The position numbers and the translations under genes are program-made. From Lachnospiraceae bacterium (GTDB lineage: Bacteria > Bacillota > Clostridia > Lachnospirales > Lachnospiraceae): 64,000 nt of DNA. Location of the stretch: positions 34,523 through 98,522 of the forward strand of contig JAFXFO010000011.1 of assembly GCA_017520425.1 (NCBI GenBank), written 5' to 3'. Shown piece after piece: positions 14,814 through 25,085 of the stretch; position 1 is the first letter of the stretch; each line of letters starts with the position of its first letter. The notes beneath the pieces were generated by a model, which ran no database searches, had not been told where the DNA came from, and saw nothing but the letters and a program-made list of their open reading frames with translations.

Positions 14814-15608
14814 CTACACCAGATACTGCTCTATCATTAATTGTACTATCTTTTGATTAAGCGGCGCTTTTGCTGTTTCATAGGTTAGTATGAAATTTAT
14901 GCCCGGTAATATATTATTCTGGGCATATATGTTGATTTTCTCCAATGCTTTTTCTACATACTCCAAATCATCCATCATTCCCAGATGTTCCCAATAAACT
15001 TCCTTTCTTTCCTTAACATTCAGCATGGTAAAATCCGGATACACCGTCCCCCATCCTTCCACGTAAATGGGACATTCATAACGATAGGGCACACCTTCTC
15101 TGTTCAAAGAATCCGCTATAATCACTTCTGACTTGGAGCGTACTCTTTCCCCCTTCGCAGTATATAGCTTCGGTGCAAATACATCAAAATCTTTTCCCGT
15201 GTACTCCACATTCTCCCAATTTGCAACAAATTCCTCTTGCGACTCTATAATGGGACAAATTAGCTTACGACGCTCTGCTTGTAACCTACTATAAATTTCT
15301 TCTGCGGGAATTGAGGGGCTAACCGTCAGATATTTATCCAGTGCATATAATTCCTTATCCACACTGACCAACACCTTTTCATCATAATCCTTTTGCGCTA
15401 ACTTATGCGCCATACCAATACTTTTTTGAGGAATATATACCCCATTAAAATCTTTTGGGTCGGTCCTGTGATAGTATTGCACTTTCTCTCCCCTCTGACA
15501 AATTCGCAAATGGCCCGCGGGCACATTTTTTAGTGCCTTTTCTTTCTCCTTTTTGATTTTGAGCAACTGCTCTTTACGCTCTTCCAGCGCAGTTCTGATT
15601 GATTTCAT
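14814..15608 (-). CDS. PD-(D/E)XK nuclease-like protein of unknown function
   Basis: 264 aa with AAGGAGG before the ATG. Residues 1-27 are a Lys/Glu-rich coiled coil. Residues 155-223 carry a restriction-endonuclease-like core: RSKSE (Glu161) on a helix, YPDF (Asp192) and the strand VYWEHLG (Glu207). The order E...PDF...E-x-(H/L) matches the PD-(D/E)XK fold, although the expected Lys after the last Glu is not where usual. I do not recognise a named family. It stands alone, converging with trpA, and a 550-bp array of nine regular hairpins begins about 50 bp from its start. Whether the two are functionally linked is unknown. Confidence 0.75.
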   Translation of the reverse strand: MKSIRTALEERKEQLLKIKKEKEKALKNVPAGHLRICQRGEKVQYYHRTDPKDFNGVYIPQKSIGMAHKLAQKDYDEKVLVSVDKELYALDKYLTVSPSIPAEEIYSRLQAERRKLICPIIESQEEFVANWENVEYTGKDFDVFAPKLYTAKGERVRSKSEVIIADSLNREGVPYRYECPIYVEGWGTVYPDFTMLNVKERKEVYWEHLGMMDDLEYVEKALEKINIYAQNNILPGINFILTYETAKAPLNQKIVQLMIEQYLV

Positions 15609-15656
15609 ATTTCATGACCTCCTTATTATATAACTAATTTATGAATCATCCGCCTA

Positions 15657-16202
15657 AGGCAGATAGATTTTTGTAATTCGCGTGGGATATATGGCGTAAT
15701 TCCACGCTCCAACTTATCACGACATATAGATATTGTTATTCAGTTATATCTATATGCCATTTCTTTCCCTCACCTTACTCTCTTGGCAGATAGAACTAAC
15801 CTTATATGAGTTTCTATCCGTCATTTTATTTCTTTCTTTTGTTACGACGACAGATAGTTGTCACTATATCTGCTTTCATATATGTCATTTTTGCATCTGT
15901 GGTTCGCCTTACAACAGATAGATTGTCTTGATTGAGCTAATATATCTGTTGCCCTCTCCACTTCTTCATATTTTTCGGCAGATAGATTGCGCTAAATACT
16001 CATTTCTATATGCCGCCACCCCATTTCTGATGTATCTTTCATCATATAGATGTCATAAAATAGGCACATCTATATGTCCTATGCCATTTCGACCACGCTC
16101 AGTCAGCCGATAGATTGCGCAAAAATGTAACTATATATGTTATTTATTTTTTTAGGATTTCTTTACAGATAGTTTTGAAATACTGATATTTTATAGATGC
16201 CC
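15657..16202. repeat. Array of nine degenerate hairpins with a 64-nt period
   Basis: The left arm CAGATAG (or CATATAG) starts at 15660, 15723, 15787, 15851, 15915, 15979, 16043, 16107 and 16166, so the steps are 63, 64, 64, 64, 64, 64, 64 and 59. In eight of nine units the partner arm (consensus CTATATG) occupies exactly +27 to +33, leaving a 20-nt loop, and about 30 nt of pyrimidine-rich sequence separates units. Units 2 and 7 pair perfectly; most others keep one internal mismatch. Loops and spacers differ between units. No open reading frame explains the period. This fills the 667 bp between the nuclease-like gene and the SGNH gene. Confidence 0.8.
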
Positions 16203-16240
16203 CTACAGGGATACTCACACTCTGTAGGGGCTTGATTTTA
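16199..16240 (+). terminator. Terminator-like hairpin at the right end of the hairpin array
   Basis: Perfect stem GCCCCTACAG / CTGTAGGGGC followed on the plus strand by TTGATTTTA. The T-rich side indicates termination of plus-strand transcription, that is, of a transcript crossing the array; on the minus strand no T run follows. Confidence 0.6.
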
Positions 16241-24730: not shown

Positions 24731-24763
24731 TTTTTTCTCCTTTTCCTCTTTTTGATTCCAAAT

Positions 24764-25085
24764 TAAGCTATTTTTTCTGTTTTCTGATTTTTGGCTTACT
24801 TTTTTCTCTCTTCCGCCTCTGGTTTTCTCCGAAAACTAAGCCACTTTTTCTATTTCTCAATTTTTGGCTTACTTTTTTCCCTACTTCCCCCTCTGATTTT
24901 CTCCAAATACTAAGCCACTTTTTCTATTTCTCAATTTTTGGCTTACTTTTTTCTCTCTTCCACCTCTGGTTCACTCCAAATACTAAGCCACTTTTTCTAT
25001 TTCTCAATTTTTGGCTTACTTTTTTCCCTACTTCCCCTTTGGTTTTCTGTAAAACTAAGCCACTTTTCAGATTTCTCGATTTTGG
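24764..25085. repeat. Tandem 73-bp hairpin repeat inside the polyamine operon
   Basis: TAAGCC/TAAGCT starts at 24764, 24837, 24911, 24984 and 25056 (steps 73, 74, 73, 72). In the first four copies TGGCTTA begins exactly +28, giving a 7-bp stem and a 21-nt loop, TAAGCCA-N21-TGGCTTA. The fifth copy has lost the right arm. The pyrimidine-rich spacers alternate between two versions (TCTCTCTTCC... and CCCTACTTCC...), suggesting duplication of a two-unit block. It fills the gap between speB and the carboxyspermidine dehydrogenase gene. Confidence 0.85.

Follow-up and report, generated by a model that had tools for sequence, protein, structure and literature searches.

A gene for a 264-aa nuclease-like protein and an array of nine inverted half-site units were found side by side in a 64,000-nt stretch of a Lachnospiraceae genome (GenBank assembly GCA_017520425.1, contig JAFXFO010000011.1, positions 34,523 to 98,522), referred to here as the window. 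Homologues of this protein adjoin arrays of other motifs and other periods in further genomes, the motif and the period change together with the protein sequence, the periods cluster around multiples of 10.5 bp, and copies of the arrays are dispersed elsewhere in the same genomes. Based on these sequence comparisons, we lean towards a reading in which the proteins form a chromosome-resident, nuclease-like family of gut and rumen bacteria with cognate, dispersed and helically phased arrays, in a layout resembling that of REPINs and RAYTs and with another nuclease fold.

The array and the protein in the window

The array extends from 15660 to 16199 (no strand assigned), with left arms (CAKATAG) starting at positions 15660, 15723, 15787, 15851, 15915, 15979, 16043, 16107 and 16166, that is, at spacings of 63, 64, 64, 64, 64, 64, 64 and 59 nt. 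The right arm (CTATMTG) was found at +27 in eight of the nine units and at +26 in the remaining one (16107). Three units were exact, namely CATATAG-N20-CTATATG at 15723-15756 and 16043-16076, and CAGATAG-N20-CTATATG at 15979-16012, likewise unstranded. When up to two mismatches were allowed, CAKATAG-N20-CTATMTG matched eight times between positions 15600 and 16260, compared with a mean of 0.031 and a maximum of 1 in 1,000 dinucleotide-preserving shuffles, and a detector using no predefined motif found five units, against at most three in 500 shuffles. Thus, the nine units, the 64-nt clock, the left-arm positions and the right-arm offset described in a first-pass annotation of this DNA were all recovered, far above the shuffles. 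The loops and spacers showed almost no resemblance from unit to unit.

A wider comparison comprised 34 units with the window motif, drawn from five arrays (the window array and L194-L197), chosen at three mismatches or fewer with a fixed 20-nt gap, a selection that inflates the conservation of the arms and leaves the spacing and loop figures unaffected. The information per column was 1.57 bits in the arms, 0.48 in the loops and 0.26 in the flanks, loop identity was 0.407 within arrays and 0.384 between them (0.322 being expected from composition), and 26 of the 29 spacings measured 63-65 nt, the others being 116, 123 and 127. Together with the shuffles, these figures agree with the earlier statement that the phase is kept while loops and spacers diverge, and they indicate that the array did not arise by chance. 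The accompanying proposal that pairing is kept by selection did not hold. Standard pairs accounted for 83.2% of the arm positions within units and for 81.5% (sd 1.7) when right arms were swapped, with 201 of 1,000 such shuffles matching the real value, and the third and seventh arm pairs were standard in just 53% of the units. As the arms are conserved without covariation, base identity is kept and not pairing, and the arms are more aptly seen as a single half-site, approximately GRCAKATAGAW, present twice in inverted orientation. Selection for a hairpin was rejected on this lack of covariation, despite a predicted folding that exceeded the shuffles alike on both strands (z of −3.5 and −3.6), since any inverted repeat would give such values. 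A known RNA family was also discarded, as Rfam gave eight weak matches, none of them reaching the gathering score.

The adjacent gene is located on the minus strand (14814-15608). In the AlphaFold2 model of its product (pLDDT 95.0), an N-terminal helix, a beta hairpin and a long helix are followed by a PD-(D/E)XK-type domain at about residues 150-264, and the model aligns structurally with I-Bth0305I, TnsA, Bax1 and Vsr; Foldseek alone returned no match at E ≤ 0.001. Residues E161, E178, D192, E207 and H208 were invariant across 108 aligned homologues, and E207 was present at 90% or more in a second homologue set (n = 75). H208 was the one invariant histidine, no His-x-His being conserved in the alignment, and the ratio of nonsynonymous to synonymous substitution rates (dN/dS) was low in the family. 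The modelled core fold and the conserved acidic residues, which are of active-site type, place the protein in the PD-(D/E)XK superfamily, in line with the first-pass annotation, and cleavage is a putative activity. Moreover, residues 150-262 matched positions 1102-1218 of the 1221 of PDC-S68, a candidate defence protein of PADLOC (E 8.9e−27), as well as the C-terminal end of PDC-S69 (E 2.8e−6). No known protein family was recognised: other searches with the 264-aa protein gave a sub-threshold DUF3253 row in Pfam, no match in NCBIfam, a single weak match in PHROGs to a family of unknown function, and no sequence match in the PDB, where a profile search gave three weak unrelated rows; Pfam scans of 75 family members yielded scattered weak rows.

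Homologues and their arrays

A homologue (E ≤ 1e−10) was found in 98 of 299 genomes of the same family, nearly all of different genera, with up to seven homologues per genome and four in the genome of the window. In a phylum-wide sample of 398 genomes, 12 had a match, seven of these covering the nuclease domain only; the five full-length ones all belonged to the window's family and included the window's genome. Relatives outside Bacillota were found in Fibrobacter and Treponema. The 80 named loci were distributed among Bacillota (63), Fibrobacterota (7) and Spirochaetota (7), with three unassigned, in a locus set that was not random, its first 113 members being the better-scoring among the matches listed and the other 80 the best 80 of 350. 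Two changes of phylum label were needed in the tree of the named loci, so there is no sign of frequent recent transfer across phyla. Two homologues with one in-frame stop (L043 and L048) are probably pseudogenes.

The reading as a phage or plasmid element was rejected, as the phage, plasmid and viral collections hold almost no relatives: three short faecal contigs matched in the phage collection, one of them over 90% of the protein, nine plasmid records gave partial matches, mostly within annotated ATPases or helicases, and a search of viral contigs with two peptide patterns only gave 28 matches, none a relative. Among the neighbouring genes of 163 loci, the largest families appeared at 11 loci, and no ATPase, defence or other partner recurred. 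Two families reaching this number, which we tentatively take from their sequences to be GMP synthase and ComEC, suggest conserved chromosomal positions for some nuclease copies.

When the flanks of the other homologues in the window's genome were read by eye, an array of GCTTAGTTTT with a 73-nt period was seen 5′ of L002, one of TTGGACATAT 3′ of L003 and one of TTGGGCATAG 5′ of L004, the four paralogues thus having four different motifs beside them. The motif-free detector was then applied to recurrent inverted 7-mers in the 1,200-nt flanks of the 113 and 80 loci. Four units were the most that shuffled flanks gave, in 2 of 896 trials for one set and 1 of 632 for the other, compared with up to 15 and 12 units in real flanks. 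Under a strict regularity rule, an array was present at 87 of the 158 loci whose two flanks each measured 1,000 nt or more; by side, regular flanks numbered 85 of 169 upstream and 12 of 182 downstream. For loci L114-L193, on which the distant control drew, the near flanks were regular in 27 of 67 cases upstream and 3 of 72 downstream, and none of the 127 and 118 segments located 1.5-2.7 and 2.6-3.8 kb away were, although one of the 127 had four irregularly spaced units. In many arrays the units were near-identical (e.g. L009, L049 and L010). Same-motif arrays on both sides of the nuclease gene, a transposon-end-like layout, were observed at L029, L062, L104, L139 and L162.

The motif and the period of the arrays followed the protein. 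Among 109 regular-array loci, the period was shared in 72% of the 286 protein pairs with an identity of 50% or more (22% in the background), and the half-site similarity of these pairs was 5.9 (3.2 in the background); neither value was reached in any of 2,000 label permutations. The half-site similarity was graded, being 4.7, 8.2 and 11.9 for proteins 50-60%, 60-70% and >70% identical, respectively, so duplicate loci alone are not the cause of the coupling. Identical-protein pairs within L001-L193, at least six in number (L005/L114, L006/L130, L011/L165, L016/L180, L017/L182 and L134/L135), slightly inflate the period sharing and the 87 of 158 count, and leave a test on clusters at 50% identity unaffected. 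The link between nuclease and array, which in the first-pass annotation had been one of proximity, thus goes beyond it, since homologues elsewhere adjoin different arrays, motif and period track protein similarity, and distant controls were empty.

The periods themselves were quantised. The median periods of 81 arrays were 52-54 (25 arrays), 61-64 (23), 71-75 (20), 83-85 (6), 94 (2), 105 (1) and 115 nt (1), with periods of 36, 40 and 80 outside this series. They fell near multiples of 10.5 bp, with a Rayleigh R of 0.84 at 10.25-10.5 bp, and taking a single array for each protein cluster at 50% identity (n = 56) gave an R of 0.855 and a best period of 10.4 bp; periods below 45 nt were kept in the 81-array tally and dropped in the cluster and protein-similarity analyses. 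Furthermore, a one-turn step was found inside the L123 array (94, 94, 84, 84, 84, 84, 84), several Fibrobacter arrays mixed 95 or 96 with 84 or 85, and the window half-site in arrays of genomes G048 and G124 recurred at 53-54 (L244), 64 (L242 and L245) and 74, 74 and 64 nt (L239). The simplest reading of these spacings is that they represent whole turns of B-DNA. Periods near multiples of 10.5 bp, together with one half-site at 54, 64 and 74 nt, suggest that the likely ligand is double-stranded DNA, occupied on a single face. Downstream of L053 and L101, tandem repeats with units of 36 and 40 nt, which do not belong to the helical series, were also noted.

Arrays away from the nuclease genes

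A second array was located in the window at 24760-25083 (no strand assigned), between two minus-strand genes and with no nuclease gene adjoining it. It has a 73-nt period and the TAAGCC / GGCTTA motif of paralogue L002, which lies on another contig (C21). Within the window's genome, arrays of the L002 motif appeared on contigs C4 (the array at 24760-25083), C8, C10 (two), C11 (two) and C15, and the window motif had five arrays. The pattern TAAGCC-N21..25-GGCTTA matched 22 times in this genome (0 in the control) and at most five times in each of 298 others, including a single match in G022, a genome of the same genus without a homologue in the family search. Similarly, the exact window motif had eight sites in the window's genome (0 for the reversed control), seven in G048, five in G124, and 12 in G169, each of the other 295 having 0-2. 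Where listed, the sites in G169, G232, G243 and G047 were identical or almost identical copies of one 34-mer (CATATAG...CTATATG), which stood at several places and often at contig ends, and the repeated 34-mers of G169, G232 and G243 were set aside as probable insertion-sequence ends. Arrays lacking a nearby nuclease, which the first-pass annotation had considered a point against its proposal, thus occur within genomes as trans arrays, while by genome the two motifs searched were mostly confined to that of the window, with G048 and G124 as exceptions.

In G282, a one-contig genome with a 2.86-Mb chromosome, the motifs of three paralogues had 44, 40 and 34 sites compared with 2, 0 and 1 for their reversed controls. 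These sites formed 13, 15 and 6 array places, respectively, excluding 1125573, 1551186 and 1680153 as probable chance sites. Away from the genes, the spacings were 71-72 nt in 42 of 46 cases, 93-95 nt in 31 of 34 and 72 nt in all 22, the three remaining spacings of the second motif (167, 167 and 168) being about 16 turns. Arrays at different loci of G282 were 65-82% alike, and most alignments stopped near the array ends, some extending up to about 130 nt beyond the last detected unit. In Fibrobacter, two genomes showed four and three motif sites, with none in the controls; a third (that of L131) showed none when searched with the motif of another Fibrobacter locus, its own locus having a different motif. 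Overall, of 40 trans arrays, those beside cognate genes being excluded, 21 lay between tandem, 18 between convergent and one between divergent genes, according to plain calling of open reading frames (≥70 aa) and with some cluster bounds including stray sites.

Proposed reading, rival explanations and known systems

What we infer about DNA binding, oligomerisation, cutting and function of the nucleases is as follows. Each protein would bind duplex DNA, probably as a dimer, at two inverted half-sites of about 7-10 bp, whose starts lie 27-31 bp apart within one unit, as read from the matches of five motif families. Spacing of the units by whole turns would put the bound dimers side by side on one DNA face, letting neighbours cooperate. 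Protein binding would maintain the arrays, both those beside the gene, usually immediately 5′ of it, and those in several other intergenic regions. The cognate nuclease would serve them as a population resident in the genome, in the way RAYTs serve REPINs. More speculatively, breaks or nicks made by the nuclease might cause arrays to be copied and locally amplified in a REPIN/RAYT-like manner. A bolder and only tentative reading is that of an undescribed chromosomal nucleoprotein class, in which nucleases, each having its own half-site code and its own whole-turn spacing, would build phased filaments at many intergenic stations, so that several systems free of cross-talk could share one chromosome and possibly divide it into regions.

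Several observations weigh against the favoured reading. One is that G048 and G124, of two genera, carry genuine CAGATAG-type arrays at 54, 64 and 74 nt (L239-L245) with no cognate nuclease identified, in a check covering one homologue, L238 of G124 (G048 has three homologues); of all the results, it speaks most clearly against a strict pairing of one array type with one nuclease. L238 itself, 48-49% identical to L003 and L004, had no array by the detector. Moreover, no array passed the strict rule at 71 of the 158 loci, and near relatives of the window gene such as L005/L114, L116 and L117 showed no array by the detector, so either degenerate arrays escape the rule or an array is absent from some loci. 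With up to two mismatches, the window motif matched 73 times in the window's genome and its reversed control 38 times; single weak sites therefore mean little, and it is clustering that marks arrays. The Rayleigh tests ignore deeper relatedness, and clustering at 40% identity leaves 12 clusters (R 0.835, P about 2e−4). Finally, one would not expect the active-site residues to be invariant in a protein that only binds arrays, and unrestrained cutting would eliminate the protein's own sites.

Among the rivals, the strongest is a nuclease held in check as a self-limiting, addiction or defence module, for which the array would serve as operator and sink: cooperative binding would repress the gene and sequester its product, and array loss or damage would release the nuclease to cut. 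This would account for the invariance of the nuclease residues, for the resemblance to PDC-S68 and for the position of most detected arrays upstream of the gene, with a median of 107.5 nt to the start codon (98 arrays), but not for arrays 3′ of the gene or in trans beside unrelated genes. As no partner or defence neighbour recurs and such a model does not require a separate motif per paralogue, we regard it as rather unlikely. Less probable still is a chromosome organiser, whose stations (like parS, matS or centromere-like arrays) would be the places of phased filament formation and would be bound by a nuclease fold serving mainly for binding. The exact phase kept despite loop divergence would suit it, as would the 6 to 15 array places per motif across the chromosome of G282, where two of the three motifs occupied partly different arcs (L205-L229), most GTACCCC-type arrays lying from 2.77 to 1.06 Mb through zero and the TACGTGT-type ones from 1.08 to 2.82 Mb. 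The arc effect was weak, with a permutation P of 0.010 but a label-run P of 0.14, so chromosome territories in G282 are suggestive only; the invariant active-site residues, the restriction to a third of the genera sampled and the lack of a recurrent ATPase or other partner also speak against this explanation.

That some other protein binds the arrays, with the nuclease as a passenger, would fit the window-type arrays of G048 and G124, but it seems improbable given that both motif and period vary along with the sequence of the nuclease, that paralogues within one genome have different motifs and that no second gene is shared by more than 11 of the 163 loci. Least probable of all, and only marginally credible, is a system of RNA or single-stranded DNA hairpins, TIGR-Tas-like or with another guide array, as the arms do not covary, the periods are helically quantised, many arrays have near-identical units and the same arms recur at many loci, unlike guides, and no Nop-domain family appeared in the Pfam scans of the 75 members. 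Thus, from the nucleoprotein system using hairpin RNA or DNA raised at first as a possibility, the tie between gene and array was supported and the hairpin form was not, folding having been equal on both strands.

Compared with known systems, the family would be closest to REPIN/RAYT in layout. RAYTs are relatives of HUH transposases, with a His-x-His motif and a catalytic Tyr, and act on single-strand REP hairpins. In both cases a nuclease-type gene is flanked by palindromic repeats, related repeats are dispersed in intergenic regions avoiding divergent promoters, and the repeat sequence is specific to the linked gene, G048 and G124 being the exceptions here. In contrast, the present proteins have a PD-(D/E)XK-type domain with no conserved His-x-His, and their tandem arrays stand on whole helical turns with arms that do not covary; the fold defining RAYTs being absent, the family was not filed under them, though it may work like them. 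From I-Bth0305I, Vsr, TnsA and Bax1, for which we know of no array, the family differs in its N-terminal part, and no intron, intein, transposon or helicase partner was seen. With PDC-S68 and PDC-S69 it shares the C-terminal nuclease region, but the PDC-S68 models exceed 1200 aa with the nuclease at the C-terminus, whereas the present protein is a stand-alone one of 264 aa with arrays. Plasmid centromeres and iterons (ParR-parC, omega-parS, Rep-iterons) are arrays of phased binding sites on which a helical nucleoprotein is possible. The present phased repeats could support a similar assembly, but they are chromosomal, occur in many copies per genome and go with a nuclease-fold protein, with no partner NTPase among the neighbours. 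TIGR-Tas has a Tas gene beside a tandem array, some arrays being stem-loop ones with palindromic stretches (PMC12045711), and it combines a Nop domain with variable spacers from which guides of 36 nt are processed. A protein gene beside a tandem array is common to both, while constant arms, often near-identical units and helical phasing set the present arrays apart, and variable paired spacers were not found in them.

A literature search limited to open-access papers, with one broad and noisy query, found no description of such nuclease-paired phased arrays. The apparent pairing of each nuclease with its own phased arrays points to an undescribed protein-DNA system. If so, about a third of the sampled genera in the window's family would carry such a system with maintained whole-turn spacing, dozens of natural protein/half-site pairs would be available for reading the DNA code of a compact nuclease, and REPIN/RAYT would be joined by another, independent example of a nuclease whose cognate repeats are scattered through the genome.

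Regarding other features of the window, a terminator-like hairpin at 16199-16239 on the plus strand follows the array, as noted in the first-pass annotation. No plus-strand gene reading into it was seen, and a terminator scan of the window did not list it, its 13-nt loop being over the limit of the scan; its 10-bp stem (16199-16208/16222-16231) and, after it, the T-rich tail (TTGATTTT) are present in the sequence. In addition, short tandem repeats of 36, 12 and 48 nt were observed at positions 230-592.
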